A stretch of 64,000 nucleotides of DNA from Marchantia polymorpha subsp. ruderalis (Eukaryota; Streptophyta; Marchantiopsida; Marchantiales; Marchantiaceae): positions 690,001 through 754,000 of the forward strand of contig AP031358.1 in the NCBI GenBank assembly GCA_037833965.1, read 5' to 3'. A model generated the notes under the pieces. It worked only from the letters and a program-made list of their open reading frames with translations, ran no database searches and was not told where the DNA came from. Shown piece by piece: positions 12,417 through 64,000 of this stretch (positions are counted from its first letter, which is position 1; each line of letters starts with the position of its first letter). The position numbers and the translations under genes were made by a program.

Positions 12417-12638
12417 TAGTCATAAACTACTTTGCTGTAACACATAATTACATAAATTCAACCTTCACGCTTCGAACCGTTTTTCATCCTTTTCTGAAGA
12501 TGAGTCAAAAGCTTGATTGTAGCATGCTAGTCATAAACTGCTTTGCTGTAACACATAATTACATAAATTCAACCTTCACGCTTCAAACGATTTTTCATAC
12601 TTTTCTGAAGATGAGTCAAAAGCTTGATTGTAGCATGA
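12417..12638. repeat. Direct tandem duplication, 2 x about 111 bp
   Basis: The unit beginning TAGTCATAAACT recurs at 12528 with only a few substitutions, one of them a change from CTAC to CTGC. The words GACATTGATC flank the pair on both sides. It is non-coding and looks like a recent slippage or unequal-crossing duplication. Confidence 0.9.
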
Positions 12639-42120: not shown

Positions 42121-42168
42121 TACGTAGTTGATTCTACCAGTAGTCATATGCTTGTCTCAAAGATTAAG
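42121..42168 (+). pseudogene. Degenerate 18S rRNA 5' head (about nt 1-48)
   Basis: TACGTAGTTGATTCTACC followed by AGTAGTCATATGCTTGTCTC aligns to the universal 18S start TACCTGGTTGATCCTGCC, and the remaining bases run to AAAGATTAAG. About five mismatches occur, all in the first 20 nt. After AAG it reads TCGTCA instead of CCATGC, and no further 18S follows. It is an rDNA-derived relic, not a functional rRNA gene. Confidence 0.88.
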
Positions 42169-42174
42169 TCGTCA

Positions 42175-44888
42175 CCACCATATCGGATGATCCCGCAGCA
42201 ACAAGAAGCAATCCGCTGGGGGGCCCGGTACGTCTGGATTGCAGATAGGACAGCAGGTCGGAAACTTCACGGAAAGAACGTAGCTGCACATAGCTACGGG
42301 AACTCGTAGAAACCCGACACACTGGAAGATGCTCCTGCCATTCAGCATCTGACGTGAATATCTGCGGATAGGAATGGCTACCCAGAACCATCGTACTGAT
42401 TGGCATGACGAAATCTCTTGGGGGGACCGGACTGTAGTCAGGGTCCGCAGCAACAAAGCACGAATCGTATGGAGAAGTCATTACTGGTGAAGAAGCCGAA
42501 CGGAGGACAACTCGGTGTAGGCACTAAGAGAACACAAGAGAACCTGGTGGAGTGGATGGAAACCTCCCCCCTAATAGGAGGGTAAACCGGGACCCGCGAA
42601 CAAGGATCGCCCTCCTCCTGGAGCCCACGCAGCCGGAGGCAACCCTCAAGGAAATATGGACGACTGTCGGAGGCACTCCTCAAGAAGTCGTGGAGGAACG
42701 AGGAGCACACGCAGACACACAACTGCAGCAATATAGGGAAAACCTCCGCACGTCGCAACTCTGAAGCAAGCTCCTCCTCCCCCCGCTTGCCCGGGGACTA
42801 GAATGTGACTCGGGGGTGTAGGGAAGAGGCCTGTGACAAGGGAGCACCGGCGAGGATCCGGATACTCAAAAAAATCAAACGTTGCCCGTCGATGCGAGGA
42901 GTGAGGACAGAAAACAGAAAGGAGAAAACTTGAGCGAGCGGCCAGTGCAGGAACAATGAAGAGGTGAAGACAAACGAAACCCCCGCAGCCCTTTATAGTA
43001 ACTGGAGGTAGCTTGGACGGAACGCAGGCATGGAGGAGAACCTGGCAGACACTCCGCTCTTCGACCTCTGATTTTGAATCTCAGTAGGGGGGCACCACGC
43101 GTCAGGAGGGTGGCTGCACCGGAATGGCCAAACCCACATGTGTGCCGGCATCCCCTCCTTGGAAATCCCACTACCTCCAGACGCATCCCGACGTGGATCC
43201 GCACAGAATGGTAGATTGACCCCTGAAAATACCCGCTGACGGTCAACATGAGGGGGTGATCCCGAGGAGCAAACCACACGTACGAGACCAGGGCCAGCAC
43301 GCGCCCTCATAACCATCACCCGTGCAGAGCCTTCTGGACGGAAGATCGAGGCGGACCGTCCTTGTTACGGCGCAGGTACTGGACCAGTACAGAGGTGGAG
43401 TATCCTTCGGGTAGAACGGTCGCACGAATGGACAGGGATAAGCGGCAGAAGACACGTGAGCGGCTGGGACAATCCGATCACCTGACCCCCCGCATTATCG
43501 GCGGTGCGTGATTGGAGGACCCAGGAAAGATGCGGGATGGCCCGGAGGATATCCAGGCGTGCCGGCGGCATGATGAGGTAGGAGCAACAACCTGCGAACG
43601 GATTCAAAGATGATACGGAAGGATCTACCTAGGGAATGGTAACCCGGGAAGGAAGACAGGGAGCCCACGGAAGTACGAACTGACGAAATGAAAACGTCAA
43701 AGTACGGAGACTAATTGACGGGAGCACGTCACAGACGGGAGAACGTCACCTGACGGGTGGGCAACACTCATCGACGGGCATAAAGGAACATATGATGGAG
43801 TGGCTTGGAAACGAACCCCAAAGTACCTTCACATAGCTTTAGAACGTAGCTCTGAAGGTGGTAATCGTTAATCGGGAACATAGAAGTGCGCACACGTGAA
43901 CACGTTGCATCATTCCTCAGCCAATAAGTGGTCTGAAGTACTCATATGCTGAAAGCCACTCTGACGGGAGGAAGGCCTCACGAGTTGACATGACAGAAGA
44001 ATGTCGCTTGACGGGGGAATGGAAACCCCCGGCATGCAGACAGTGACGCTTATGGGTCTGGACGAATGAAGTTCTGTAAGACATTCTCCCTGCCTCAGGA
44101 TGACACAATGAAGGGTGCCACTTGGATTACAAAGGAAACTCGCACGTGGAAAAGGCGTCCTAAGTTCAGTTATATGACAAGCCGAAGTGCTAAGGAAGCA
44201 CAGTGGAATGCATCCGGACGGGTGAAAGGGGCTAGCCATCGACCGGACAAGAAAGAGTAATCAGAAGGGGAAAGCCGACCCTCACACGTGACTCGGAAGT
44301 ACACCAGACTGTTCCGGTTGTGGATCTCAGGAATCTGAACAGCGTAGTGGAAAACTTGGTATCCTAAAGCCGACGAGCCAGGAAAAAAAAATAAAAAATA
44401 AAAAAAATAAAAATTATTATTATTACTGTACTATGTTTTTTAGAACTAATAGCGAAAGTAGAACCTATAGAATCACATCTACTAACCACATTAATAACCT
44501 GTTCGCCTTTCCCCACTTCTCCTCTCCTGGCATCTCGGTAGTAAGCTGTTGTATTCTCTCGGTGTGGGGTACGTGAGCCCCACATCCGGGACATTGTTAT
44601 TTTTCACCTGTGGATGCTCTGTGCAGATGTTGTGGACCAGGTACCCAGGTTAGTCACAGGTAGTTGGGGCTAGTTTTTTATACGCCCATGCCGCTCTGCG
44701 GTGCACTCTGGGTTCCCTTGGTTGGCTCGCACAGGGCCGCTGCTGTGTTTCAGTTGCCGATGCCCTTGCCTTTCCCTGCGTTTGTGGGGGGGGTGGGGGG
44801 TCTGGTGGCTGCTTTGTACTTTCTGCGCGTGTCCTTTGTCCGCGCCCCAGAAAATTTGATTATCCTGCAGAGTCCTGCAGTTTTCACC
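42175..44888 (+). mobile_element. Plus-strand LINE-family copy, 5'-truncated or rearranged, inserted in the 18S head
   Basis: The right end carries the family tail: GGGGTACGTGAGCCCC at 44566-44581, a CTGCAG-AGTC-CTGCAG hairpin at 44865-44880, then TTTTCACC. AAGATTAAGTCGTCA is directly repeated at 42160-42174 and 44889-44903, so it looks like a 15-bp target-site duplication, carrying the local variant of the 18S sequence. The interior has no long frame in the sense direction. Near 43716-43780 GACGGG words recur, and an A-rich stretch (44381-44430) may be the poly(A) end of another insertion. The body may therefore be composite. Confidence 0.65.
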
Positions 44889-44903
44889 AAGATTAAGTCG
44901 TCA

Positions 44904-46346: not shown

Positions 46347-46362
46347 ATGCATGGCTTAATCT

Positions 46363-47660
46363 TGGTGAAAGCCGCTGAAAGCAGGCGAGTCAATTTTCTG
46401 CGTCCAAAAACGTTGTAAAAAAACCGAGAATACAAAGTAACACTCACTACCCGGACCACTAGGCAGACCAGCGAAGTGAGGAGTTGCGGTGCACAGACAC
46501 AGCCCTGTGCAAGCTGATGACACTACAAGCAAGCTGTGGCACTACCAACCTGATAGCAGCCGCCACCACCTAGTAGCCCTAGCGCTCCTGCATCATCCAT
46601 TGGAGCCTGCGGAGAAAACCAACAAAAGAACCTCATGTCTGCCCCTAATTGTGGGTCCACGTCCCCACAGCAAAGCACACCACCAGGTAACACATAGTTA
46701 GACACTCAATACAAAGGAAAAGGGAAGTGAGGAAATCGGAGCGTGGCCCATCCTGAATAGTGTCCCCGTGCTGAATTGTCCAAGTTAGTTCCTGATTTAT
46801 CTGCATCATGTCTTGGCACAATGCCCTTTGTTCCACCCGCTGAAAGTGTCTCGGGTGGCCGTCGTCCACTGTGTTGCTGCGTTGAATCCCTGTATGCCTC
46901 GTCAGGAGGAGGTCCGCATTCGGTGTCGCGAAAAACGTGGCGCGTTTGTTGCGCCTCGCTACTCAACTCCAAGACCTAACCCTAATCCGAATTTCACGTG
47001 GTTGGTGCCAATAACCCTAACCCGCGGTTCGACAGGACATCGACAGTGGCCTGTCGTGGACAGGTCGTAGTTCCGACCACTGTTCACCCCGGAAATCACG
47101 GCGCGCGTTAATTGCGCCTCGCCCCTTGATTTCAAAAGCTAACCCTAATCGGTGACTCCCGTGTTTGGTGCTAATAGCCCTAAAACACGATCCGTGTTTT
47201 AGGTTTGTCTTGTCGCATTTGTCGCTTCTTGCTGTCCGGACAGGGCGCAGCTCCGACCACTGTACCCCCCGAGAAACACGGCGCGTATGTTGCGCCTCGC
47301 CACTTGTCACCAAACCGTAGCCCTAATCTGTGTTCCCCGTTTTTGGCGCTAATAGCCCTAAAACTCGCGCCGAGTTTTCCGCCCTATTTTTGCGCTCCCT
47401 GGTGCGCGAAGATTTGTCGTGTTTGTTGACCGGACAGACCGCAGTGCCGACCATTGTACCCCCGTATCTCGGCGCATGTTTCTCTCTCCCGAATCTGGCG
47501 CTAATAGCCCTAGGTGTCAGTCAGGCGTGTTTTGCGCTCCCCCTGAGCAGCTCCTCAGCTGTCGGATGGTTCGATTTGTCCTGAGGTACCGCTGTCATGT
47601 CCGGAGTTGCTTAGGTGGAGATCTAGGAGCGCAGCCCCCTGTCCGCTCCTTGCCACCTGG
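46363..47660 (-). mobile_element. 5'-truncated LINE-family copy (about 1.3 kb)
   Basis: In the minus sense it starts right after the 3' target repeat of the large LINE (47661-47678) and ends at 46363 with ...CAGCGGCTTTCACC. The 16-bp AAGATTAAGCCATGCA flanks it on both sides (46347-46362 and within 47661-47678). It holds GGCGC...TTGCGCC dyads (46939, 47280), ATTAGGGTTAGG-like words (near 46975) and the palindrome GTGGG-GACGTGGA-CCCAC (46651-46668), the same order as in the 3' part of the large copy. Confidence 0.75.
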
Positions 47661-48517
47661 TTGCATGGCTTAATCTTTTGGTGAAAGCCGTTGAGAGCGG
47701 GCGGATCAATTTTCTGCGTAAAAGAACGCCAAGAGAAAACAAAGATACAAGAAGACACCACCAGCCCCAAACAGGTGCTAACCACCACGGAGTCGGTGGC
47801 ACAAGACACACAGGCACAGCCCTGTGCAAGCTAACAGCATCACGCGTAGTGCATTTGCAACAAGGGGAGGGGAAAAAAAACGCCACACCCACCTGTCCCT
47901 CCGCGCCCACACCAGCCATCTAATGGGTCCTCCACAGAGACGAACGAACAGTAGGGTGCCTTGACCACCTCTGAGTATGGGTTCACGTCCCCAGCTCAAA
48001 GAACATCATAAGAAGCCTTTAGCATTTAAGCGAGTGAGAAGTAAAAGGAGAGTGAGAGAATTGGGCGAGCTTCAAGATCCATCAGGTTGCTGTTTCCCTG
48101 TCACTGGTTAGTTGCCGTAGTTCCGCTGTGTGCTGAAGGGCTACGCAAGTACCTATAGTGGTCCCTTCTTCTGCCCCGTTTAGCACCGCCCGGGAGTCCC
48201 GTTCCTTGCCCAATTATGAGTGCCTGGCGTCTTGCCCTAAGTTTGCGCCGTGATTAGCGCTAGGAACCCTAATCCGGCTTGAATTAATCACTCCATGCGC
48301 TGCTAACAGCGCGGCCCGGGGGGGCGAGTAACCGGGTAAATAACTACTTCCCGAACCTGGTACCCGGCCGGATTTGCCTAACCCTGTTACCTGGCTTTTC
48401 GTCTTTTTGTGCAGTGCCAGGTGGCAGGAGCCGAACCCTAACCCTAACCCTAATCTCGTGTGTTTGTTCTGGAGGTCCACGCTTGGTCCGCATCCACATG
48501 TCTGTCGTGACTCCGTC

Positions 48518-49349
48518 CTGGGCCTGACGCTCCCCATCTCTGGGAGCGCGGATCTAGCCGCGCAAAACCCGGCGCATGTTGCGCCAGATTTTGTGGCGCC
48601 TAGAACCCTAAAAACCCGTGGGTGCCCCTGAGCGTGTTTTGCGCCCCGATCTTTCGGCGCTTTATGTTGTCGCGTCTTTGGGCGACGTGGCAGCCGGCGC
48701 CTTTTGCGCTCCAGGATCGGCGCCCCAAAACCCTAGTATTCAGGCAGCTTGTCCGGTTCTAGGTGCGAGCTCCTAGATCCCGGGTGCTGATCCTAGTGCT
48801 GCGACGTAACCGGGCCTGATCCAGCTTTTGTTTGTTTGTTGCGTGAGCTCAGTCCCGTGCCTGACTGCCCTGCCCGTCTTTTGATCGCGGTAGTGGGGAG
48901 ACCCTTACCCTAACCCTAATCTCATTCGTTTGTTCTGGCGGTCAGCGGCTAGGTCCACGCACACGTGGCTGCCGTTACCCCTGCCATCCCTTAGTCCTGG
49001 GCCCGGGGTTCCCTACATCTGGGAGCGCAGATCTCGCAGCGCTAAACCCGGCGCATATTGCGCCAGGTTTTGTGGCGCCTAGAGCCCTAAAATCCCGGCA
49101 AGTGCCCCTGCGCGAGTCTTCGCTCCCCAATCTTCCGGGCGCTTTATGTTATCGCGTCGTTACCCCTGCCACCCCCTTATCCTGGGCCTGAGGTTCCCCA
49201 TGTCTGGGAGCGCGGATCTCGCAGCTCTAGACCCGGCGCATGTTGCGCCAGGTTTTGAGGCGCCAAAAACCCTAAAATCCCGGAAGGTGCCCCGGAGCGT
49301 GTTTTGCGCCCCGGTCCTCCGGGCGCTTTACATTGTCGCGTTCCCCACC
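48518..49349 (-). repeat. 3' UTR tandem repeats with GGCGCATGTTGCGCC dyads and TTAGGG-like tracts
   Basis: Related units start at about 48518, 48995 and 49181 with CTGGGCC(T/C)G. Each runs through CTGGGAGCGC(G/A)GATCT, the dyad GGCGCAT(G/A)TTGCGCC (48571, 49050, 49235), CCCTAAAA and a GCGCTTTA...TCGCG end. ACCCTAACCCTAACCCTAAT lies at 48435-48454 and a similar tract at 48901-48920. The same dyad and tract recur in the neighbouring copies (46939, 47280, 58974; 58829-58848), so they are family features rather than local accidents. Confidence 0.8.
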
Positions 49350-50610
49350 GTGGGCCTGTCCTTTCCTGACCTGTGGGGGCAGCTCGCTGATCCGTCCTCC
49401 ACGTGCCCCCCTGGGATTCCCTCGTTTCTGTGGCTGTGTACGTGTCGTTGTGGAGCCCCCTCTGGCTGGCACTTGGGCTTCAGATCCGCTCTTCCTGTCC
49501 CTCCGATCTGAACGGATACACCTTAAGTTGTTGTCGACGTGTCCACCTGAGCTATCAGCATTCCGCCACATCGCAAGGGTGGACCCTCTTTATCCTCCCA
49601 GATGGGGTTATCAGCGAATCCCAGGGGAGGATCGTGATTCGCCCCCTTGGATGGCAGAGATGGCGGATCCAGGACCACGGCACACGACATTCCCTCTTGC
49701 TGTATCTGCCCTCATTTCTCCGTGCAGCTGCGTTCTGTGTAGCGAGGCCTCAGTAGTGCTCCCGTCGCAGTATGTGATCGATGTTCGGTGTTCGACTTGT
49801 GCCGGTGCAGCTGGTGTGGGGGAGTCTCGTGTACGAAGTAGTGCCCGTGTCGCTGTAGCTGTTTGCAGGTTCGCTCGCGATGGTTCCTTGGTTCCTCACT
49901 GCCGGCGTGAGGAAAGCGCACCGACGCCGCTTTCTCTTCCTTGGTTCGTGCTGGCCCCTCGGCCGTTTGCAACATTGTGTCCAAGTTTGATGACGCCGCT
50001 GTTGGGAGTCAGCTCGCTCGACATTGTGCTCTCCTCCGACTGTTCCTTGGCCGTTCTTGGCTGGATTGCCCTGTTTCTCTGTGGACATGCCTCAGACGTG
50101 ATACCCGCACCTCATCTTCTGATTCGCCAAGTGCACTATCCTGTACGTCCCTCTCGTTTCCCTATCCTGTTGATCGCTGTAGAATGCATGTGCCCTTGCG
50201 TCGTTTCCAAACATTTTCCCGCAACCATTTACGCCTTGGCGCCCTGCAGCACTCTGGTCTTACAGCCCAGCCCAATTCCCGCACTTTCCAGTTCCTGCAG
50301 ACTAGATTAGCTTATGATGATCCTGGTGGTTCAAGGGCTCCTCCTGTCGTTTCTCTGCATTACCAAAGTTCCTAAATTCCTAGCTTCTGTCGACAGTTCC
50401 ACCCAGTGTGGGTACTGCCTCGCCCAGTCCGACCGCTGCTCCCTCCGTGCAGGGTGCTTCCGGTCCTCCTTCTAAGCGTCCTAACTGTTCAAGCATGGCC
50501 TTCAGCCACTTTTCTATCCTAGTGACGATCGACGTGGCAATGGCACTTTGAAGTATACAGGCAACTTCAAGCCATTGTTTCTGTGGGGGAACCACATTCG
50601 ACTCCTTCCA

Positions 50611-53600
50611 CTAGGCTATAGACTTGTCTATCGTGTTACGGATCCTGCCATGCATACTTATTGAAACATTGCCATCCGAAAAAACTTTTTGATTCCTACT
50701 GAGCCACAGATGTCTACAGACCTCCGTGGCTAGCATCCACTGAGCTACTATTAAACTGTTTTTTTTCCGACTGAGCCCAAGTTCTATCAGGTGTAAGAAG
50801 GTAGTAGCCTCACCAAAAATTGAAGAGGTTGCTCCAATGCTCCTCCATCTGAGACCGGCAGCCGCTTTCCATACCTGCTGTGCAAATGGGCAGTCGAAGA
50901 AGATGTGGGCAACTGACTCTGTAGCTCTGCAACCCCGAGGACACCTTCCATCTCCATGCCCAATTTTGGACGCCCTCTCATTTGTGTATAGGGCCTGCTG
51001 CAGGACTCTCCACATAAAGAGTTTATCTCTATTCACATTCCTGCACTGCCACAGATTCGTGAATAGCTCCTCCCACTCGGTCTCTGTCTTCTGAACTAGC
51101 CACTTCCTGTTAAGGTGCTCGCTTAACATCGTGGCCTGCCGCCTCTCTCTATACCACCTGCGAGCTGTCTCAGTGAAACTACCCTGTATCGGGCTTCCCC
51201 TGATTCTCCATCCCGCACTTAGTCTGAGAGGGGCATCAGTCAGACCTGTAGCAGAGGTGATGCGAAACAGAAAGTTATGGATTTCTGATCCTTCCTCTCT
51301 GGAGCGTTCGTTCCTAGGTCCCCTGACGAAGGTCCTTTTTAGTTCTTCTTTCTTTCTCCACAGGGTGACTATCTGGGTAATTTTAAGTTGGCGCAACTGT
51401 GCCATTACGCGTTTCGTTGCAGTGTCCCCATCCGCCCTGCTGGTAAGGGTGAGGCTCACCATGTCCCTCAACGTGACGTATCTAGGGATAGCCACGCCTG
51501 CCGGTTCCCAGGTCACGTCTGCTTGTATGGTCTGCCAGCATAACATAAGCGCCCTCCCTACCTCTGTCCCAGCCAGGTGCAAGGGCTGTCTAGTTAAAAT
51601 CAGATCGGAGAGACTATAGTGCTTCCTCACTATGTCCCGGTGATATCTTGACCTGCCCTGCTTAACTAAGTCGGCAAGCGCCAAGTCCCAAGTGCCTGCA
51701 GTTTCGTCAATGATCGCCCCAATCCATTTACCCATAAGAGATGAATTTGTGTCGGCTAAACTTCAGATGCCTAGCCCTCCTGCCTCCTTGGGCCTGCACA
51801 CTATATCCCACCTGACAAGTGAGCGCTTCGCCTTCCCTTCTTTGTTATACCCCCACAAGAACTGTCGGTACAACTGCTCCACTTTCTTGCACGTTGTTGC
51901 CGACAGCCTGATGATTGAGGAGTAGAAGGTATGTTGCGCCTGTTGCACGAACTGCAGTAGTACAGCCCTAGCTTCAAATGAGAGAAGTCGTAGTTCCCAC
52001 CCTCCAAGTGTGTTTGAAATTTTCTGCGTGCAGAATTCGTCTTGTTGTTGTTTACTCAGATCAAGCCCTGTTGGAGCGCCAAGGTATTTGTGCACTTCCC
52101 CTCGCTGCATCAAGGAGCATCCTGTCAGTGCAAACCAATCCGGGGGTCTGTCCATCCCGAGGAGCAAAATCGATGATTTCGAGAGGTTCAGCCTGGCTCC
52201 ACTGCTGACCTCATATTTCGCAAGCACTAGCCTGAGTTCATGAAAGGAGTGTGAATTGTCAATGAAGACACCCATGTCGTCGGCGAAGAGGGAGTAATCT
52301 AGGAGCACAGTGTCCCCCACCTGGTAGCCTCTCAACCTGCCAGCTTGGAAACTCAGTTTCATTTCTGTCATGAGGGGTTGAGTGGCCAGCACAAAAAGCA
52401 GTGGGGCCAGCGGGCAACCTTGGCGCACTCCCCTTCCAACCGGGAACCTGTAAGTCTTGGCTCCATTAACATGCACCGCCGTGGATGCACCCAGGGTAAG
52501 GCCTTTCACTAACGTGATAAACCCTCTCCCCAGGCCGCACTTCAGCATGGCGTCCCAGAGGTAATTATGTTCGACTCTGTCATATGCCTTCTCGAAGTCA
52601 AGTTTTACAAACATGCCCTGGCGCTTATAAGTTCTGGCCGCATCCTGTGCCATCCACAAGGTGAGCACATTGTCTAGCATGTGCCTACCTTTTATGAACC
52701 CTGTTTGCTGAGGTGATACCACTTTCTGCAGCAGCATCTGAAGGCGCCCTGCTAAAATCCTAGCAATGATCTTGTAGTCAGTTGTGAGCATTGTGAGGAG
52801 GCGCCAATCTTTTAATGACGTTTTGTTGACTGACTTAGGAATGAGGCGAATCATTCCTTCAGTCACTGTTTCTGCAAGCACTCCCTCTGCCCAGAACTTG
52901 GCAACCATTTTGACGTAAAAACTTTTCATGAATGGCCAGGTTTTCTTTAGCGCTTCAGCAGAAATACCATCAACCCCAGGCGCTTTGTTGTGAGGGAGGC
53001 TGAAAAGCACGTCCTCAATCTCCTTCTCCGAGGGTGGCGCTGCCAGCATACTCCGTTCCGCATCCGTCAAGTTGTCTTCTACACTATGCATGAGTTCGTC
53101 TCGCGTCGATGCATCTTCTATGGAGAAATATATGCGGTCCAGCCGCGCCCATCTCGGATCCCCTCCGTATGCAGACCATCTAGTGTGTAGTGGCCCACGT
53201 ACCTCAGCCGCGATTTCCCGTACATCCTGAAGGTTATGCTTCGTTCTAACTTCTGTGAACGCCTTCTCCTCAGCTCCCCCCAGTACCTGGCGTTCCCCAG
53301 ACGAGTCCGAAGCATTATCCACCATATTCCAGTCTCCACAGAGGATGACATTGGTGTGCGGAAATAAATTCCGCAGTTGAGTCCAATGCGCCGCTCTACC
53401 ACCTGGAGAATGTGGGCCATAGAATGAGGCTATGTATACCTCGTGTCCTCCTTTCTCGACCTGCGCCCAGGTAACATACCCATCTTCCGACGTTCCTGAC
53501 GCACGTATTTTCAGGCTCTTATGGATGAGTAGCGCTGTCCCCCCAGTGCCTTCTCCTCGAACTTCCTTCTGGCCAGGGGCACACACCGTTTGCAGGTCTC

Positions 53601-53796
53601 TGCTCAGCAAGTGTCCTATCGCCGTCATGGCGAAGCTGTCCAACTTGTGCTCCTGTATAGCTAGTATATCCGGCTTGTCATGTGTATGTGCATAAAAGTC
53701 CTTCAGCTTGTATATCCTGGTCGCCCCATTCAACCTGCCCACGTTCCAGGAAAGTAAATTTAACGTGAGCGGGGTAGACTGTGGGGTGTGTATCAT
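50611..53796 (-). pseudogene. LINE ORF2: APE endonuclease - reverse transcriptase - zf-RVT, broken by one in-frame TGA and an internal deletion
   Basis: One frame runs from ATG 53796 to the stop at 50611 (about 1,061 codons), interrupted only by TGA at 51763-51765 in GGLGI*SLADTNSSL, where other LINEs usually continue; CGA to TGA is the likely change. The endonuclease shows LLSWNVGRLNG, AIQEHKLD, LCGDWNMVD and RLDRIYFS. It then jumps straight to DELMHSVEDN, lacking the usual SDH motif and much of the linker before the RT. The RT has WRLLTMLTTDYKIIARILA, QTGFIKGRHMLDNV, FVKLDFEKAYDRV, GVRQGCPLAPLLFVLATQP and LFADD. The C-terminus carries the zf-RVT pattern WRVLQQALYTNERASKIG...CPRGCRATESVAHIFFDCPFA. 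This copy should not be able to cut DNA by itself. Confidence 0.9.
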
Positions 53797-56016
53797 TGAG
53801 CACTGAAGGCCGCACGGCCGTGCTCAATGGGTGACTTCTCAGCCCCAACCTCGGTTGCAGCCGGAGAGACAGTGCTAACTTCACCACTTCTGCCCCTGTT
53901 TGATCTGTGTAGACCACTGGCCAACCTTGCTGCCGCCTTTGCTGCTCGCTGCTCTCTTTTGCGTATGGCTGAAGACTTCATGCTCAGCGATTTACCTCCC
54001 AGCGCCGTCAAGGGTCCCTGACTTGCCACCTGCTTTCGCGGGAACTTTGCCCGGATGCCCTCCGTCAGCGGCTGGGGGTCAGGTTGCGCCTCAGGTATCG
54101 TCTCTTCATAGCCCTCCTTCTGTTTTACTGTTTCTTCCACCCCTTCCTGAACTTGCGCGGAGGTGGGGTCTACAGCTTCTCAATTGCCCCTTTGCGCCAA
54201 GGTTTCCAGAAGGTGTTTCGGTACCAGCGGCGAAACTGGAGGTGTCTCTTCCACCTGTGCAGTCCCAGGCGCAAGCTGATCCACTAAGCCCTTGGGTACA
54301 CTCTTTGCCATTTTAGCACGTCCTCCGCTTTGGTCACCATCTGCTGAGGGCTTGCGCTTGTTGCCCGTGTCGACTGCCTGGACCTTCCCCGGCGCTTCTC
54401 CTTTTGGTCGTGGAGTAGCCCTGTTTCTGCGCACAAGGGGAGCCGGGGAGGTGGCTGTGTTCTGTTCATCCGCTGCATTCCTCCTCGTTTTACTCTGAAG
54501 TGATGCCGACACAATTGCAGTCATAGCCTGTTGCGCTGCAGTTGCTTCCCTTTTCTTTCCGTAAAACTGCTCAATAGTGCCTGGTCGACGTGTGGATAGG
54601 GCCTCCTGCACTGTTGCTTCAGTTCCGACCTGCAGGGGTGCTGGCGCTTGCTCCAGAGGGTCCTCCCCCCGGTGGTTCTTCGTTACTGTTCCTACTGGAG
54701 CTGTCTCCTGTTGTTCGTCTCCCCTTTGCTTCTTAAACACGTTGTCTGCGCTCGCAGGTTTGACGCCTAAAGGTTCCTCCTCATCGCCTGGAAGGTCACC
54801 CTGGTTGTCGATAAGAGCTGCTTGCTGTGGGGTAAGCTTCCTCCAGTACCCGTCACTTCTTCCTTTGGTACGGAGTTGTTGAAAGAACTTGGATGTAGGA
54901 GCAGGGGTCTTGAAGGTCGAGTCGTCTGCACGCCATTTCCCCTTGTCCTTATCACGATGTTCCTGTTGCACCTCATACTGAGTCGTGCCCTCTGCTCTTG
55001 GTCTTTCACGTTGTGGTCTGCGGCTGGGCCCTGCACCCTCCCGAGGCGGAAACAAGGGATCTCCCGGACAGTCTGCAGCAATGTGCCCCTGTCTTCTACA
55101 TTTGAAGCACGAGTTGGACAAGTGCGTGACATCAAATGGTATGCGCTCCAAATTCCCTTCAAGAGTTACTTCTACAAATGGTGGGGGGAGTAGCCCTCGT
55201 GGCCACTCCAGACATAGACGAATAATTGGTCGGCTACATTTCTCTATGCTCGCAGGCCCTATCAGTACAGGTCCAAGAGTTCCGGCTATTTCTCTAATCC
55301 AAAACAGCTGCAGCCTGGTTAGATTAGTGAACCGCACCCATACTGGGTACATCGCTGGTGTGTAGCTCAGGTCTTCCGCCTCTAGTGTCCATTTGACTAT
55401 TATGAAGTCATGTCTCAGGTAGGTGATCCGTGTCCTAGTCAGAGCTAGGTCCCTGTCCCTCTGAGAGTGGAACCGAATGTGGTAGTTTCGGCTCCCGATT
55501 GCTGTGATCGACAAAATTTTCAGCTTCTTGCCCCTGCTGAGCACTGCCTCCGCCCACTCCTGTACTTGTGGGGTACTCAGCCCGCGGTCTAGGAAGCACA
55601 GAACCGCTGTAAGATTCTCACTCTCCTCCTGCTTCTTCTGCGTGTCGTCTTTCGTGATTACCAAGGAAACCTGCCTGAGCATATTCAGGGTTTCCTCCAA
55701 CTCCAAATCCTCCTCTGTTTCAGGATCTGCTTGTGTGTCTTCCAGGGCCTCATCATCCGAGAAGTCCTCCTCGGGGTCAACGTTGCTGGTTTCATCCTTC
55801 CGAAGAATCGAGAGAGTCCTCCATGGTGGCCTGACTTCTGTTCATGCTTTTGGGTCCCTCGCTGGCTAGCGCCCGCTGCATGTGGCTTTCGAGCACTGAT
55901 TCCCGTGGGGGGGCCATCTGTTCAATTTCGTCTCCTGGGGCACCACCTGTTGGAGCCAGTGGCACGTTCGTCACCAGCTCTGGACCTAGAAGGGGGTGGT
56001 TCCGCTCTGCCTCCAT
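53793..56016 (-). pseudogene. LINE ORF1: DUF4283 and CCHC zinc-knuckle RNA-binding protein, broken by a frameshift and one TGA
   Basis: The reading starts at ATG 56016 (MEAERNHPLLG...MEDSLDSSEG) and runs to a stop at 55792. The continuation DETSNVDPEEDFSDDEALE is in the frame shifted by one, so a single-base indel lies near 55800. That frame runs through DUF4283-like sequence (LTAVLCFLDRGLS... WTLEAEDLSYTPAMYPVWVRF) and a zinc knuckle CFKCRRQGHIAADC to TGA at 54180-54182. Beyond it the same frame stays open to 53793. The final stop overlaps the ORF2 start in ATGA, a 4-nt overlap suggesting coupled translation in the ancestor. Without the two lesions the protein would be about 740 residues. 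Confidence 0.85.
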
Positions 56017-56287
56017 TTTCTGAGTGCAGAGAGTGCTCCCTTCTGCGAGAGTTCTAGGGGCAGCCTATTTTGCAGGTTGCGCCCCTGCCCTTTGTGTACT
56101 GAGTGGAATGATGTGCTGCCTTGATGCTTGGATGTTGAGTGTGCTATTGCGTCGTGGTCGGTGGGAACTGCTCGCGTCGTTGCTCCCGGTGCAGTGTTGT
56201 ATGTTGCAGGTGCAGGTCGTCCGCAGAGCTCAGCTCCCAGAGTGGCTACGAACGCTGTTCCCGCTCCTGACCTAATTAGCCAGTTTG

Positions 56288-57420
56288 CCTAGACCTAATG
56301 CCCTGAAGAGAAAGCGCTCACCAAGGGCGAATTTCACCGTCTTGACGAGAGCATTGGTATAGGTCGGAGCTCAGTCACAGGGTGAGTTCCTGGCAGCGGT
56401 CCCGGTTCTAAATCTCCCAGTTTCAATCTTGACCTAACAGACCCCCTATGCCTAGACCTAATGCGCCTGGGCGCTACACCACCCTAGAGGGCGAACTTCA
56501 GCTCTGAGACTGCACCGACAGGTCTCAGCAGAGCTACACCCAGTGGTGAGTGCCTCACTGCTAGCTCCGTCGTCAATTCCACGATTTCAAATTTGACCTA
56601 ATTAACCACAAACGCCTAGACCTTTTTTGCGCTAGACCTTTCTAGGAGCGTCGCTGTCGTGGTGTGTGCTAATCTTCCCTTGCTACAGGTGCCCTGCATG
56701 TCTCTACTTGTGAAATCTGGAATCTGCGTGTTGTTTGTTGGTGTTGTGTCGAAGCGGCCGAACAACGCCTGGACCTTTGTGCGCTAGGGTTCGGTTGAAC
56801 CCTAGTTGCGCCTTTCATCATCCTGAGCGGTCTGTTCGTCTAGCGTGACCTTCGACATGTTGACCGTGTGGTCGCTGCTGCACCCCTGCAGACTTGCCGT
56901 CTCTGCCCTATGTCACTGCTCGTTTCGTCGATGTAGCCAAAAAACGCCTAGACCTTTTGCGCTTATTAGGGTTAACCCTAATGCGATTCGGAGTGCTGCG
57001 TTCGCCCTGTCTTCGTCGACTGTCTAGCCACGCCTGCAGTCTCGAGCCGACTTCCTTCCGTGTTGCCTCCAATGTCGATGTAAACTTCAGTGTCGTTGAA
57101 TGTCGAGTGCAGACCTCGAATCTTCAAGCGCATGGACCTTGCAGCGCAGGAATTAGGGTAAACCCTAATTCCATCTGCATCAACTCAGACTCTGCTCAAT
57201 GTCGCTCGTTTCGCCCCTGGGCCGTTCACGCGCTGCAGCTGCCGTGCATGCTTGCCAGGGACCCCTTGAGTCGAAGTGCGTCTTCAGTGTCGTCGAATGT
57301 TGAGGTCGAGGTCGCCGCCGCCTGCCCGCCGCCGCTGTCTGTATTGCCGTTTATTGCCGTTTGTTGTCGCTGAGATTCTCATGTCGTAATTGTCAATGAA
57401 ATGTCGCCTGGACCCCCCGC
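56288..57420 (-). repeat. 5' leader monomers of the long LINE
   Basis: A CGCCTAGACCTTTTGCGC-like core recurs at about 56288, 56451, 56615, 56768, 56947, 57131 and 57407, so spacing is mostly 153-184 bp. Several units also carry TTTGACCTAATTA before the core or GGGTTAACCCTAAT after it. They lie between the 18S head and ORF1 in the minus sense. By analogy with tandem 5' monomers of mouse L1 they may carry the promoter, which is inference. Confidence 0.7.
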
Positions 57421-57900
57421 CGATAGAGAAATCAATGCATGTATCGTAGTCATGAGTCTTGAGAGTCGGCGTCGATTGCCTGCATAGAGCCTAATGTCGT
57501 GTGTTGATGGTGATGCACAACTCTTTACGCTCGAAACCCGCAGCCGCTTCTGTTCTCCTGAATGCATCGTGCTACTACTCCCAATGTGCTGCCAAGTTCG
57601 CTGTTTCCCACCGATTTTACTCCGCGCGTCTCGTTCCCGGCATGGATCCGCGAAACCCTTAAAAGAGTTTTCATCGTCGCCTCAGGTTCCTGCTTCCCGC
57701 CGCACCTAAATGTGTGCTCATTGGACTCGTCTGCTCAAGTCCGATTGTTCTCGCTACTCCCTAGCTTTCCCAAACCTCGTGCGCTGCCCTCTAAATCGAA
57801 ATCCCTGAGCTGTTTCTCTGGTTTCCCGTGGTACTCGAGGTTTCCTGCCAGGCTCCCAGTCACCGCGTTTCGCGGAGCTGTTTCTAGGGTTGAGCCTTTT

Positions 57901-57954
57901 GCATGGCTTAATCTTTGAGACAAGCATATGACTACTGACAGGATCAACCAGGTA
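57901..57954 (-). pseudogene. 18S rRNA 5' head, nt 1-54, nearly intact
   Basis: On the minus strand it reads TACCTGGTTGATCCTGTCAG, then TAGTCATATGCTTGTCTC, then AAAGATTAAGCCATGC. This differs from the usual plant 18S start by about one base. It is preceded by AAGATTGCTTGTTCTTGGC and followed by LINE sequence rather than more 18S. It is rDNA cut by insertions on both sides, not a functional gene. Confidence 0.93.
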
Positions 57955-57973
57955 GCCAAGAACAAGCAATCTT

Positions 57974-59358
57974 GGTGAAAACCGCAGATGACTGGAGGAG
58001 ATTCGAATTTTTTACCACGCAAAGCGTAGAAGAAGAACCAGAACAACAAAAGGAAGAAAAACACAGCCCCCCCCAGGAGCCCAGACGCGCAGGAACAGAC
58101 CAAGGGCGGGGACAGTGAGACGTGCCACGACGGCCTGGCACACGCCAACCGACCAAGAAGCAAAAGGAGAGCAGAAACATGGCAGGTCGAGACCAGAATC
58201 AGAAATAACTACCTCGTAAGCTTCTAAGACGGTCCACCATCCTGCACAAAGAAAAAACACAACGAGATAGCACGGAGAAAACTGCGTAACTTAGAGGGGT
58301 GGGGATCCACGTGTCCCTACCCCGTTCGTATGCAAAGTAACTTAAAATGTTAGTTAGCAGGATGGGAGGAGTGGGGGGAGAGCACTGAGTATTTCTGATA
58401 CGAGCAGTAGGTCATGCATTCCGCATTCTGCAGTCAAAGTGGCCCTGGATTTGTAGTAGCATGGATCGTCCGTTTTTTTCCCTTTTTCCCTCTCTTTTTT
58501 GTTTTTTCCCGGTTGCACTACTGTAAGGAGCTGGTGTCCGGGTCAAAGCCCCTTATGTTGCCTCCATGTGTCCCGTTCTGGTCTTCCCGGGCTCCGCGTA
58601 TCCGCATTCCCTGCCCAGAATCGCAACCCTAACTTTGCGCCTGAAATGGCGCTTAGAACCCTAACCAGCCTTGGTTAGTTTGTTGCCTAACTAGCCGAGG
58701 TAGCGAGTCAGATACCTACAAGGCCCTGTCGGTACCACTTCCGTCTCCTAGATACCCGTCTTGGTGTGGTCACCCTCGGCGGCCGCCGTTCCCAGCGCTT
58801 AATGCGGTGCCCAAAGGGTGGGCGCCTCAACCTAACCCTAACCCTAATCCAGAGGAAATTCCCATTTTCCGATAGCACAGGTCGCCTGGTGGCCGCGTGT
58901 GTCACTGAGATTGCCCGGTTACGCGGCCGTGGGGTGTTCCTTCGCCTTCCGTAAAACACGCACCGTAGCTCCCGGCGCATGTTGCGCCAGAAAGTTGGGC
59001 GCCTGAAACCGTAAATCCCGGAATATTATCCTTAGCGTGTTTTGGGCCCTAGGTTCCGGGCTCTGCACCCTGTCGCGGTTCCTTCGCGGTCTTGTCTGCT
59101 CCCACACCGTTGGGGGAAGCTCTATTTGTCCGCTTTGGGAGCTCTAGTCCGAAGTCGCCATAACCTGCCACATAATGCTCCAGGTTCCTTGGCGCCTGAC
59201 ACCCTAAAATCTCGGCGAGTATCTCTGCGCGTGTTTTGCGCCCCGAATCCCGGACCTGAACTATGTCGTCGTTTGTATCGTAGCTGTGGCCGCTCCCGTC
59301 AGTATGTGTCGCTTCCGTGGCCCTGTACACCACGTGTCACGTGTCACCTATGCACGCA
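57974..59358 (-). mobile_element. 5'-truncated LINE-family copy (about 1.4 kb)
   Basis: It is flanked by identical 16-bp AAGATTGCTTGTTCTT repeats (59359-59374 and 57958-57973, minus sense). It contains the GGCGCATGTTGCGCC dyad (58974), a TTAGGG-like tract (58829-58848), an A-rich purine tract (minus strand of 58467-58510), the ACGTG palindrome near 58296-58322 and a CAG-TCAT-CTG tail hairpin followed by GGTTTTCACC. The order matches the 3' third of the large copy. Confidence 0.75.
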
Positions 59359-59374
59359 AAGAACAAGCAATCTT

Positions 59375-62300
59375 GGTGAAAACTGCAGGACACTGCAATA
59401 GATTCCATTTTTAGACGCCACAAACGGGGCGCAAAGCGAGAACAACACGACTGCCACGCAGGAATCTCGGGCTGCCACGCACGGGTGGGAGCCCGGGGGG
59501 CAGGCGGCAGCAGGGACGGCAGAGGGCGCAGCAAACGGCCCGGCGCGAGCCAGCTAGAACAGCGAGACGAGGCCCCCAGCGAAAAGGAAGGGGGGGCTCC
59601 AAGGCGAAGAGCGTAGCTTGGGGTGGCGGTCGGGCACATGGTCCGCGGCCCGCCACCACAGCTGTCTAGGCCCACATGCGAGCAGATGATCCAGAGGGGG
59701 CACCGCCCGAGTGGTAGTAGAGAAAAAGCAGGCCGGGGGGCAATATAGGGCTCACGTACCCATACCCCAAATGCATGACAGAATAAGTGGACATTCACGA
59801 GACAACGATGGCATGCTGGGCGTCAAGAGAGAGAGGAGGGGGGGATTCATCCCCTTGTGAATGAGCATTGCGAAGTGTGGGGGGCGGAGCTCGGGCAACG
59901 GAACGTCTGCTGCTATCGGATTTGCTGTCGCTGTTTCCGTGGTCGCTTGTCTCTGGAGGGGGTCTTCATGGTCTCCAGCAATTTCCAAAATTTCCTGGTT
60001 TACGCTATTTCAACCTTCCTAAACCCGGGGAAAATAACTCCTCTATACTAGAAAAAAACAAGCAGTGGACCTGGAGTCCAGAGACTCGTCTTAGCGGGGT
60101 AACGGTCCCTGTTTTAAGGATTCGTGGGGGGGTTAGTCCTGATTTATTTCAGTTGATTTTTGTGTTTTTCAGGAGTGCTCCTAATCGGGGTTGGATGTAC
60201 TCCAGCGTTCCTGGCTTAGATTTTCCGGTAGTTCGCATGTATAGGGTGCGGTCCTGTATGCTGCCCTTAGCTACGCTGATGTCTTCCAGCGGTAATCCGC
60301 TTTTCGGATTTTCCGAATATTCCGGGAATATTCGTGATTATTCGGGAATATTCTAGGAATCTTCCGAGGGGAAGTGAAGGACGGGGGCAGTTTTCGTCAA
60401 GTATTTTGTGAGCTTCTCCATCCCTATCCAAGGTACCCCGATCGTCCCCCTGTGTCTTCTCCTGCCCCGAGGATAGTGATATCCATGTTCCGATAATCCT
60501 TGTTTTCCGAAATTTTGAAAAATCCCGAAATTTTTGGGAATATTCCTAATTTCAATTCGTGACCTCTTGTGGTTAGAAGCCACCGCCCTCCTCCGTCGTC
60601 GCTAACCGTGGGGTTCTCGTACGAGAGGGGTCTACTCCTACCCGGATTTGCCTGCTCCAGATTTTGTCTCTCCCCGGTGGGTCGGCAGCGGCGGGGCGTA
60701 TCACAATGTCGTCCGGAACTTTTCCTAACCGTCAGTGGGTAGGTATATTCCGTCGTAATCCAGTATCTTGGGTGTCTCCACTCGCTCCTGCCCCGGTGCG
60801 GTTCAGGCGCCGTAACGACGTACTGGACGCAAACCTTATGCCGCGGCGGTACCCTCCCCCGCGCATCGCAAAGTATAGGATGCGAGGATCCGTCGATGGG
60901 AGAAAAAGAAGGGGGGGGGGGAGGAAATTTCCCAAAGCGGCGGGGGTCCGGCGGGGAGAGAGAGAGAGAGAGGGGGGGGGGTTTCCCACAGTCCAGCCGT
61001 CATTCCGGCCGTCCGCACGCTTCTGCGATCCGCGGTTCGGATTGGGTGCAGTACAATTCGTTCGTGTCTCGGGGCTCCCCCCGGGGGCGCAGTATCATTG
61101 TCTCGCGGTGTCACCTCCCGTGAGTCTCCCTTCGCAGATCCATCGTTCGGGTATCGACATTCCACACGTCAGTGCCCTGCGATCGCATGTTTACATGGGG
61201 GCCAATCCAGGCGAGCGAAATTCCACGGTCCACACCGGTATTTCCTGTTCAGTCAACGTACTGCTATGTTCCTGACGGCCTCCATTCGCTTGTGGGGGCC
61301 GCCTCCTCGCGAGCTCCCACCTGTCCTTCCTCACACGCAATTTCCCTTTTCCTCCGTTCTCCACTTTTACGTGCTATGAGATCTTTCTTTCGGCTGGCTC
61401 CTTGCCACGTGGAGCGTTCCCGCATGGGAGCTCCTTTCAGGCGAGCGGGGGGGTTCAGTGCCCCACGCACAGCATAGTTGCCCTTCCATCTGATTCGTTT
61501 CCAGGTTTCCCGCGTGTGTCCTTCGATTTTGGTGGACATCGGTATCTATGGTCCTTTCCACATAAGCGCTCTCCGATTCGCTCCTTTCTAATTTCAGAGG
61601 CGGCTCACCATTCAGCGAAGCCGCACGCGCGAGGAACGGAAATCTCATCTGTCGCGACGAGATCTGCGCTGGCGGGGGGGGGGGGGGATGGGGGGGAGAG
61701 GGGCCGACCCTCTCCCCCCCACCCCCCCCCCCCGCCAGCGCAGGATCCCTCCATTCTCCCGAACAGGAGTTCTTTCTTCCCTCGAGGCATGTGTTTGAAT
61801 CCGAGATGCCTCCTGCGCGGGGCGTCTCCAGTTCAGACCTCTTCAGGCGTTCACTTTCTTGCGTCCGAGAGTTCCTGTTATCAGCTCGGGACTTCGATCC
61901 GTTTCCTTTCCACTGGCGAGTGGAGTAACGAATATCTTCTTTACCGGACAGCGAAAGTCCACTTCCTTCGTGTCGGTGGGCGTCTGGTCATTTGTTTCGG
62001 TGGGCAGTGCACTCGGGCTGGTCCTCCGTCACTTCAACGATATCGGATCTCGTCTTCCTCGCACGACGTTCCGGCGAGTGCAAACAGTATCTTCAGCCGT
62101 GGAGCGAGAGGCCCAATCCGGGCGGAGGGTGGTGCAGGTTCGACGGTGCCCCCGCTGTAGCCTCCCACTCGCTTGTCGGGCGCGTCCTGGCTGTGCCTGC
62201 AGCGACGTCTACAGCGAGTATCCTCCCTCCGAGTCGACATCCCAGACCTCTCGCTGGCGTTGGCGGGACCTGCTAAGCCGAACAAGGACCAGAACCGTAA

Positions 62301-62377
62301 CCCCTCCGAGGAGCCAGATCCCAACGTGGTGCAGGACACAGCCTGCTCCCACCCCCGTCGGAGCCCGCGGTCCCACT
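59375..62377 (-). mobile_element. LINE-family copy, about 3.0 kb, without recognisable ORFs
   Basis: It is bounded by identical AAGATTGCTTGTTCTT repeats (62378-62393 and 59359-59374, minus sense). The tail has GGGTACGTGAGCCC (near 59747-59760) and a perfect TGCAG-TGTC-CTGCA hairpin, then TTTTCACC. The body carries GAATATTC clusters (60311-60363, 60505-60556) and an exceptional G/C-tract hairpin (61665-61742). No DUF4283 or RT sequence is seen, so it is a truncated or divergent family member. Confidence 0.65.
61665..61742. repeat. Long G-tract/C-tract hairpin, arms of 35-39 bp
   Basis: The left arm reads TGCGCTGGC, then 14 G, AT, 7 G, AGA and 4 G. The right arm is its near-exact complement: CCC, TCT, 7 C, A, 12 C, GCCAGCGCA. 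The loop is about 4 nt (CCGA). Arms differ only by a few tract-length steps. Confidence 0.92.
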
Positions 62378-62393
62378 AAGAACAAGCAATCTT

Positions 62394-62942
62394 TGTGAAA
62401 ACCACTGGAAGCAGTGGGAGATTCCATTTTTGGGCGAACCAAGAGGCCGCCAGAGATACAAAGCCCTCCAAGAGAGAGGCAACAGAAACAGAACAAGCAA
62501 AAGCACCAGAACCTGCCTAGCCCGGCAGGGTGACACGACACCCAACTGGGGGAGGGGGACGGGGGAGCAAGGCGCAGGCACGGCCCTTCGCGGGCCAGAC
62601 TATGTGGCGAGGAGACAAGGGCCTGAGGAGAGACGCTACCTCTCCAGGTCCATTCCGGCGCACAGTGGTCCAACAGGGATGTAGCAGATCAGCGTCGGGC
62701 GGGGCTGGGGCAGCACTCCTTCAACCTGGGACTCACGTATCCATGGTCGGGGTACGCCCAAGGGGCCCTGCACAGGTGGTAAACGATAGTCGTAATTCAT
62801 GTCCGGCCTAGGTGGCCTCAACGTTGGGTTCCGGTTCAGAGGCAGGGGTTGCAGTGGCAGCTGAGGTTCTATCCGCAAGTCCCACCCCAATGGGAAGGGG
62901 TGGGTCGTGGTCATGGTCATGGTTGTGGTCGTGGTCGTGGTT
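62394..62942 (-). mobile_element. Short LINE-family copy (about 0.55 kb, tail only)
   Basis: It ends with the perfect hairpin CCACTG-CTTC-CAGTGG and GGTTTTCAC at 62394. The 3' flank is AAGATTGCTTGTTCTT (62378-62393); the 5' flank shares 11 nt of it (AAGATTGCTTG, 62943-62953). It contains TACGTGAGTCCC near 62728-62740. In the minus sense it opens with a (GACCAC)n-type simple repeat. Confidence 0.7.
62905..62940. repeat. (GGTCGT/GGTCAT)n simple repeat
   Basis: Six imperfect hexamers lie exactly at the junction between two tail copies, directly beside the AAGATTGCTTG junction word. Confidence 0.85.
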
Positions 62943-62953
62943 CAAGCAATCTT

Positions 62954-64000
62954 GGTGAAATCTGCGTGTGACGCGCAGGGAAATCATATTTCGGCTCTTA
63001 CAAAGAGAGAGAGAGAAAGAGGAAGAGCACTGGGGCGAGATACAGGCCACCCAGCCGCACCTGGAGCCGCACAAGCGCAGCAGCCAGGCACGGGAGGGGA
63101 CAGAGGGGCGCATACACGGCCAAGCGCGGGCCAATCCTAACTAGCAGGCAGCGTCGCAGCCGGGGGAGAGGCCCCGCAGCCCGACGAGCAGTCGGAGAAG
63201 GATCCACGCCACCTGCACGGTTCAAAGTCACAGAAAGTCGGGGCTGCAAGCATACAAAGGAGGGGGCCCACGTACCCCGTCCCCAGGGTTAGGTGCAGCA
63301 ATCGCGGTTATGCACAAGAGGGCGAAGGGAGGGAGAGAGAATGGAGAGTAGAGTAATCCGGGCGGGAGGGACCGCACAAGCGCAGCAGCCAGGCACGGGA
63401 GGGGACAGAGGGGCGCATACACGGCCAAGCGCGGGCCAATCCTAACTAGCAGGCAGCGTCGCAGCCGGGGGAGAGGCCCCGCAGCCCGACGAGCAGTCGG
63501 AGAAGGATCCACGCCACCTGCACGGTTCAAAGCCACAGAAAGTCGGGGCTGCAAGCATACAAAGGAGGGGGCCCACGTACCCCGTCCCCAGGGTTAGGTG
63601 CAGCAATCGCGGTTATGCACAAGAGGGCGAAGGGAGGGAGAGAGAATGGAGAGTAGAGTAATCCGGGCGGGAGGGACCGCGTCGAGGTGTCTGTCACAAA
63701 GGCCCGGTAGCAGCAGCAAGCAGAAGCGGGGAGGGTCGGAGGGTGTGCACTGGGGTGGGAAGCGCGGAGGCGGGCAGCGTCGGAGGAGCGTAAGTCGTAG
63801 TGGTCATCGGGAGTGTGGGAGTCCATGAGACCTGGAGTTACGTGGTCGAGGTGGTGAAGGTGGTCAGGCGGAGTACGCGGTCGAAGTACGTGGTCGGGCG
63901 AGGCAACCTGGTTCGTGAAAAACGTGGTCAGGGTGGGTTACATGGTTTTGGAGTATTACGTGATCTGCGAGAGGCGTGGTGTGCGACTGGAGCGGCTGGG
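62954..64000 (-). mobile_element. LINE-family copy running off the window
   Basis: The tail at 62954 onward reads ...CTGCG-CGTCACA-CGCAG then ATTTCACC in the minus sense. GGGGTACGTGGGCCCCC lies at 63262-63278 and again at 63567-63583 because of an internal 305-bp duplication. The outer part (63790-64000) is rich in ACGTGGTC words. The 5' end lies outside the window. Confidence 0.65.
63069..63678. repeat. Tandem duplication, 2 x 305 bp
   Basis: 63069-63373 and 63374-63678 begin GCACAAGCGCAGCAGCC and are nearly identical (for example GTTCAAAGTCACAG versus GTTCAAAGCCACAG). The unit spans the ACGTG palindrome of the LINE tail, so the copy carries two of them. Confidence 0.93.

Follow-up and report, generated by a model that had tools for sequence, protein, structure and literature searches.

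A plant L1-type LINE family that very probably targets nucleotide 39/40 of the 18S rRNA gene and stacks serially in Marchantia polymorpha

Introduction

Long interspersed nuclear elements (LINEs) that insert site-specifically into ribosomal DNA (rDNA) have so far been known mainly from animals. R1 and R2 occupy the 28S ribosomal RNA (rRNA) genes of animals, R2 probably being co-transcribed with the rRNA, and R7 of mosquitoes is a LINE inserted in 18S rRNA genes. Here, we describe arrays of a LINE in a window of 64,000 nucleotides (nt) of Marchantia polymorpha subsp. ruderalis DNA (contig C9, positions 690001-754000, of a 241-Mb assembly in nine contigs). The copies very probably represent an L1-type family with several 3'-tail subfamilies, which is specific for the position between nt 39 and 40 of the 18S rRNA gene, stacks serially and carries rDNA leaders.

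Several described systems resemble parts of this picture. Tx1-group LINEs are known from other hosts and targets. Zepp of Chlorella and Coccomyxa, which stacks head to tail, uses its own tails as the target and is not known to be anchored in rDNA; the Marchantia arrays share the head-to-tail stacking within the green lineage and differ by being anchored in rDNA. With R1 and R2 the element has rDNA-specific target-primed insertion in common, while gene and site are different and R2 uses a restriction-like endonuclease. Like R7 and R8, it occupies a fixed position in the 18S gene, a likeness at the level of the gene. R8 of Hydra, inserted in 18S (PMC5035012), belongs to the R2 superclade; the authors of that article report never having found R2 outside animals. 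Unlike R8, the present element has a plant host, an apurinic/apyrimidinic (AP) endonuclease and an enzyme that is closest to L1 by match score.

Among plant L1 lineages, one (Ohshima's ME1) has a conserved 3' stem-loop, according to the available portion of the source (PMC3747384). The Marchantia element resembles ME1 in being L1-type with a stringent-looking 3' stem-loop, and differs from it in its tail, which is TTTCACC with no poly(A), and in its target specificity, none being described for plant L1 in that portion (PMC3747384). Most target-specific families fall into the early-branching, Tx1 and R1 groups, as far as the accessible text of a survey goes (PMC4640811); the Tx1 group is similar by description, comprising target-specific L1 relatives with an AP endonuclease (PMC4640811, PMC3747384, both in their available parts). 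No such element is mentioned in the accessible sections of two papers on Marchantia rDNA (PMC6739443, PMC9516144), and a limited search of titles and abstract openings in the open-access literature returned no rDNA-specific plant LINE. If the present reading is true, rDNA targeting would probably have arisen independently in another LINE lineage and another kingdom, in a tractable model plant.

The target site in the 18S rRNA gene

An empty target site is present at the end of contig C9, where an intact 18S start (Rfam RF01960, nt 1 at L055:462) carries AAGATTAAGCCATGCA as nt 40-55 and continues into the 18S gene. The AAGATT that opens this 16-mer begins at nt 40, in agreement with the 18S numbering given in the preliminary description of this DNA, and its upstream neighbor is CTTGTCTCA. 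When a query composed of the external transcribed spacer (ETS), the 18S head and the 18S body from this contig end was compared with the genome, 45 matches were obtained (genome-wide counts throughout are lower bounds, to be read as 'at least'). In nine of them, the 400-nt ETS stretch is complete and the 18S head is present as well; these are the empty C9 source and eight others, and all eight others end precisely at nt 55 (C4:30114398, C5:29958, four on C6, C7:27202809 and C7:28227433). What follows nt 55 is a LINE 5' end in six of the eight and a 5'-truncated LINE in the remaining two; together they comprise seven distinct junction sequences, two C6 units having one in common. The filled C6 units recur every 26.7 kb, with one place at which two consecutive LINE 5' junctions lie 11 kb apart. 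Two more matches reach the ETS start without 18S (C5:26110440 and the end of C6).

The LINE 3' side is not visible in the genuine units, but C7 has a decayed relic in which it can be read. There, ETS and 18S to about nt 52 are followed by a 285-nt insert (C7:1261741-1262025) that terminates in a stem-loop and TTTTCAAC, after which 18S resumes at nt 40 and runs to nt 126. We thus find what characterizes an rDNA-specific LINE, a fixed site in an rRNA gene and a target duplication. The earlier proposal of a plant L1-type LINE inserting by target priming at AAGATT of 18S rDNA, with a duplication that recreates the target, is supported by the rDNA pieces on C4, C5, C6 and C7 and by the empty site on C9. 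Filled heads do exist in genuine rDNA, and the 16-mers are not part of the element, since the empty 18S has AAGATT and the ten bases after AAGATT differ.

At C2:30277742 (L013), two tiny serial inserts (about 50-77 nt, reaching barely beyond the tail) lie behind a decayed 18S head and are followed by AAGGTTAAGCCATGCA and AAGATTAAGCCATGCA.

The arrays in the window

On the minus strand of the window, two 16-mers each occur exactly three times and bound neighboring LINE copies, as had been reported: AAGATTAAGCCATGCA (18S nt 40-55) at 46348..46363, 47662..47677 and 57900..57915, and AAGATTGCTTGTTCTT at 57958..57973, 59359..59374 and 62378..62393. In 100 shuffles of the window, none had three matches of either 16-mer with two mismatches allowed. 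The AAGATTAAGCCATGCA series holds a 5'-truncated copy of about 1.3 kb (46364..47661) and a copy of 10.2 kb with a complete 5' end (47678..57899), whose 3' end is separated from the duplication by an AA spacer (2 nt). The third AAGATTAAGCCATGCA continues an 18S head, and between the two series there is, as stated before, only GGC plus 18S nt 1-39 (57916..57957). The AAGATTGCTTGTTCTT series comprises the 5'-truncated copies A (57974..59358), B (59375..62377) and C (62394..62942, starting with AACCACGACC), followed by the 11-nt duplication AAGATTGCTTG (62943..62953), which, joined to the AACCA of copy C, makes up the 16 nt duplicated around the next copy, D. Only the 3' part of copy D lies in the window (62954..64000); the copy extends to C9:756512, and the array continues beyond the right edge. 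Consistent with the serial arrangement described earlier, successive junction overlaps in window and adjoining 6 kb are 16, 16, 11, 16, 16, 6 (at the change of series), 17 and 16 nt. Every copy of both series has a LINE 3' tail ending in TTTCACC or TTTCACA, followed by AAGATT (once with the AA spacer). Target duplications are mostly 16 nt long, and AAGATT is their sole constant part.

A further LINE copy, E, missing from the preliminary description, is located on the plus strand (42175..44888). It is 5'-truncated, its 3' tail has the stem-loop and TTTCACC, and it is flanked by its own 15-nt duplication AAGATTAAGTCGTCA (5' copy 42160..42174, 3' copy 44889..44903). Ahead of it, at 41899..42159 of the same strand, lies relic rDNA from about -221 in the ETS to 18S nt 39 (69% identity over the whole match, about 92% over 48 nt in the 18S part).

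The preliminary description had placed AAGATTGCTTGTTCTT in the ETS, about 19 nt before 18S, and had accordingly seen two neighboring target sites at a single ETS/18S junction. The first point is wrong, and the second is not supported. The true ETS reads ...CCCGACGCGAAGGTCGGC in the long-ETS copies (C6, L016, L021, L032 and L055), which, as aligned or read, show one G/T difference upstream of CCCGACGCGAAGGTCGGC; AAGATTGCTTGTTCTT is absent from it and occurs five times without mismatch in the searchable genome, each time on C9, at 747-783 kb. Its series begins 4.3 kb outside the window at an 18S-head relic, ...ATATGCTTGTCTCA and then AAGATTGCTTGAACC, at C9:758341, from which five LINE copies run to window position 57974 with junction overlaps of 16, 16, 11, 16 and 16 nt. 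Because the series starts at this 18S head, AAGATTGCTTGTTCTT represents the 18S nt-40 site, changed in its downstream bases, and both series use that site. The ten bases after AAGATT are not the same everywhere (AAGCCATGCA; GCTTGTTCTT and variants on C9; GCTTTGCTTT on C4; ACTTGACT or ACCTGACT on C8; GTTCACTTGG on C9), and the variants GCTTG, GCTTTGCTTT, ACTTGACT and GTTCACTTGG each lie immediately behind a nearby 18S head ending in ...GTCTCAAAGATT. A relative of the 10.2-kb copy, with 98% identity at the 5' end, is found at C9:844791 behind AAGATTGCTTGTTCCC and without an 18S leader; one LINE type therefore occupies both kinds of site. We also considered the altered ten bases as LINE-internal sequence and found no support for this, the motifs being present only at junctions or absent from the LINE stretches compared.

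Within the arrays, a 305-bp stretch of copy D is present twice in tandem (63067-63680, 99% identity), and copy B contains an inverted repeat with long G and C runs (61664-61743). The LINE 3' region at 48427-49341 has internal repeats of 148-185 bp with CCCTAACCC(TAA) motifs, which are similar to the telomere repeats of plants. The 1.4 kb between the opposed LINE arrays (44904-46347) has other relatives only at C9:828749-829904 and C9:845602-846878.

Specificity across the genome

To score what follows the tail, two tail-only patterns with free positions behind were run over the whole genome, allowing up to three mismatches and with reversed controls. The first pattern gave 15 matches, 13 of which were taken as family tails, followed by AAGATT in 12 cases (two via an AA spacer) and by GAGATT in one; the other two have three mismatches each and were judged to be chance, and the reversed control likewise gave two. 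With the second pattern, all nine matches were followed by AAGATT (reversed control, none). Both patterns combined yield 22 copies, with AAGATT behind 21 and GAGATT behind one. When the 523 bases of the 3' end were used as a DNA query, they returned 12 matches, again all followed by AAGATT, which are mostly the same copies and include the query and its window neighbor.

Some candidate junctions were discarded. C5:768546 (with C5:768397), examined as a LINE/18S-body junction, matches over 34 of 40 nt, is AT-rich and has no clear tail; C4:14168417 and C9:7368881 carry the 18S 16-mer with neither rDNA nor LINE seen nearby and were taken as chance.

Proteins and 3' tail of the LINE

ORF2 (second open reading frame) of the 10.2-kb copy lies at 50611..53823 on the minus strand, in two pieces with one in-frame stop. 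It encodes an AP-type endonuclease (Exo_endo_phos, PF03372) N-terminal to the reverse transcriptase (RT; PF00078) and a C-terminal zf-RVT domain (PF13966), all three above cut-off. Relative to a copy on C6, whose ORF2 is open over 1367 codons, it is without about 220 residues between endonuclease and RT. ORF1 (54180..55841, minus strand) has a CCHC zinc knuckle (zf-CCHC, 22.0 bits, cut-off 20.8) and a match to DUF4283 at 25.9 bits, under the cut-off of 27.2. For the first 1070 residues of the C6 ORF2, the best match in the PDB is human L1 ORF2p (184.6 bits, residues 18-811), the best R2 match reaching 76 bits. Judged by domain set and best-match scores, the element is an L1-type LINE; the R2-group layout, with a restriction-like endonuclease C-terminal to the RT and no AP endonuclease, was not found in the window ORF2. 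The C6 ORF2 matches one M. polymorpha subsp. ruderalis protein with 100% identity over 54% of the query, as well as six further M. polymorpha proteins at 55-74%.

The LINE 3' end consists of a stem-loop and then NTTTCACC. Most plant L1s have a poly(A) or simple-repeat tail, whereas no poly(A) was seen on these tails, which end in the stem-loop and TTTCACC. To assess the stem-loop, 29 AAGATT junctions were collected, two AT-rich ones were removed and identical tails were merged, which left 24 (C2:8341449 out, C9:819378 in). In these 24 tails, 93.5% of the cells are paired and 14 cells are changed on both sides; none of 500 shuffles reached the covariation score, and shifting the stem partner by one to three columns lowers pairing to 18-42%. 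In a separate test of 25 tails that included C2:8341449, the mean was 4.6 of 5 pairs, which was equalled by none of 2000 arm swaps. At the LINE 5' end, a search of two 5' ends against Rfam to E = 10 gave no match to a self-cleaving ribozyme, including those like hepatitis delta virus (HDV).

rDNA pieces ahead of LINE copies and order of insertion

The 18S piece in the window starts at -3, with a LINE tail and the associated duplication immediately ahead of it. It has 98% identity to true 18S over 58 nt, ends at nt 55 and adjoins the complete 5' end of the 10.2-kb LINE. The same order of tail, duplication, rDNA piece and LINE 5' end is found at C5:27799 (from -162), C2:8296380 (from nt 22) and C4:813347 (from about nt 31), and tail, duplication and rDNA piece follow one another at C2:8339535 and C2:8341222. 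Loci on C1 also start at -162, and two of the four C6 units have a second, exact 18S nt 1-55 ahead of the LINE. At the junctions there are target repeats of 14, 17, 28 and 56 nt, and runs like GCAAAAGCCATGCA stand ahead of the LINE 5' end, which suggests templated joining on the 5' side. The window 18S stretch, including nt 40-55, is best read as a leader that would derive from an rRNA-LINE read-through transcript.

Position -162 of the ETS was considered as the rRNA transcription start and dismissed, as the promoter-like motifs, AGTATATATRAGG, are located some 2 kb ahead of 18S. An 82-bp promoter-like block with AGTATATATRAGG is duplicated at C6:8478-8559 and 9156-9237 (L048), possibly as rDNA gene and spacer promoters. 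A separate repeat family near chromosome ends includes an 18S fragment from -3 to nt 44 (C9:24200148, C6:31422713, C6:105515, C5:33147860 and C2:31530327), followed by GCTCGCTCACAGC in the four copies read; its -3 start is that of the window piece.

The junctions also record the order in which copies arrived. Copy D is flanked on both sides by AAGATTGCTTGAACCA (16 nt), which holds the first five bases (AACCA) of copy C, and because D's duplication contains C's 5' bases, D was inserted after C, on its 18S side. The copy that adjoins the head at C9:758341 repeats the same 16 nt as copy D. On C4, the head-proximal stretch has the 16-nt duplication AAGATTGCTTTGCTTT, and the next two junctions have 12 nt in common. 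The newer copy thus appears to be the one nearer to the 18S head, clearly on C9, and C4 points the same way more weakly. This fits a putative need for 18S upstream of AAGATT. Since arrays record insertion order, the landing place of the next copy is readable from the sequence.

Proposed mechanism and alternative explanations

Starting from the observed site, target duplication, 3' stem-loop, serial stacking and local order, insertion might proceed as follows. Nicks by the endonuclease would fall immediately ahead of AAGATT on the bottom strand and some 16 nt beyond it on the top strand. The RNA would be recognized via its 3' stem-loop and TTTCACC, and reverse transcription would be primed from the AATCTT-3' end. 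The new copy would then be joined upstream of the target, which would be left duplicated, mostly over 16 nt. AAGATT and the sequence upstream of it (the 18S head or, possibly, an earlier tail) would be all that has to persist, so each insertion would recreate the target and copies would pile up. A LINE within rDNA appears to share its transcript with the ETS and 18S head, and new copies may in some cases bring an ETS/18S piece along as a 5' leader, creating a fresh 18S nt-40 target elsewhere; this step would account for the 18S stretch in the window. Unlike in R1 and R2, leaders seem to be kept in the Marchantia LINE, and no HDV-like ribozyme was recognized at the two 5' ends. If leaders do carry the target, a site-specific element could found new sites outside rDNA. 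In a wider picture, a land-plant L1 with 18S nt 39/40 as its target would lead the life of an R element: transcription starting at the rRNA promoter would read through into the LINE, ETS-18S leaders would bring the target to other parts of the chromosomes, heads would be refilled on their 18S side, and arrays would build up both in the chromosome interior and near the ends. We consider the chances of this picture evenly balanced.

Alternative explanations concern the window 18S head, the arrays and the junctions themselves. The preliminary description took the 18S head in the window to be the starting locus, and it might indeed be the remnant of an old local rDNA unit whose ETS and 18S body were lost later, given that relic rDNA with a longer, decayed ETS exists next to copy E and at C7:1262026. 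We regard this as possible but as the less likely reading. The window piece begins at -3, immediately preceded by a LINE tail with its duplication, and this arrangement is found again on C5, C2 and C4, so that a leader is the better explanation; the identity of the window piece is also higher than that of the 18S part of the neighboring relic, although this difference is mild. As for the arrays, duplication of DNA also occurs in this genome: the 26.7-kb tandem units on C6 show 100% identity across 8.3 kb of compared sequence, the three C1 loci resemble one another in the flanks read, and three C9 heads have a common upstream context. Yet it is improbable that unequal crossing-over or segmental duplication of one LINE with its flank built the arrays, as neighbors belong to different 3'-tail subfamilies, are truncated at different points and range in length from 0.55 to 10.2 kb, and still have the same 16-nt flank, and duplications absorb the neighbor's 5' end.

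Inside the arrays, AAGATT stands behind TTTCACC and is inseparable from it there, as would be expected if AAGATT were the element's own 3' end and copies inserted beside their own kind, as self-nesting LINEs do. The empty 18S, however, natively has AAGATT at nt 40, and behind 18S heads AAGATT comes first and the LINE second, which makes this explanation very unlikely. That rDNA and LINE reads were wrongly joined during assembly to give these junctions is hardly credible: rDNA and young LINEs are both difficult to assemble, but junctions that arose independently match to the base across several chromosomes, and the same structure is present in a diverged relic.

Several observations nevertheless weigh against an 18S-specific LINE with target-primed stacking, or limit its reach. 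None of the genuine rDNA units examined shows both LINE flanks: part of the C6 unit reads N, and the others meet an additional LINE, some other element or the end of a contig. The eight filled heads are not eight independent events, because two C6 units have one junction, and eight of nine is not a frequency of filling, since most rDNA, judging from the few units found, lies outside the nine contigs. Tail subfamilies other than those of the tail-only patterns were gathered only with AAGATT in the search pattern, and TTTCACCAAGATT occurs at 48 places (reversed control, four), many of them single, dissimilar to the family and mostly unexamined. AAGATT alone is common, and the requirement for upstream 18S is therefore deduced only from the distribution of insertions. 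Regarding the stem-loop, stem pairs with a double change number three, which 53 of 500 shuffles reach, and pair types number six, reached by 390 of 500; the poorly pairing tail C2:8341449 was excluded from the 24-tail alignment; and when each distinct arm is represented only once, by nine tails in all, 93 of 5000 arm swaps and 10 of 1000 shuffles reach the observed value. The 18S heads at C9:784069, C9:763860, C4:14877882 and C2:8340003 are followed by sequence matching no array, and at one C1 locus tested the sequence behind the 18S piece had no LINE similarity. The order on C4, finally, depends on a GCTTT repeat that could slip, and its intervening copies are unread.

Other features of the window

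Outside the LINE arrays, the window contains a gene for a core-2/I-branching type glycosyltransferase (24819-26066, PF02485) and exons of an aldonolactone oxidase-like gene (36660-39828) with FAD_binding_4 and a match to ALO under its cut-off. AT-rich tandem repeats are located at 15182-15421 (three units of 78 bp) and 12417-12637 (two units of 111 bp).

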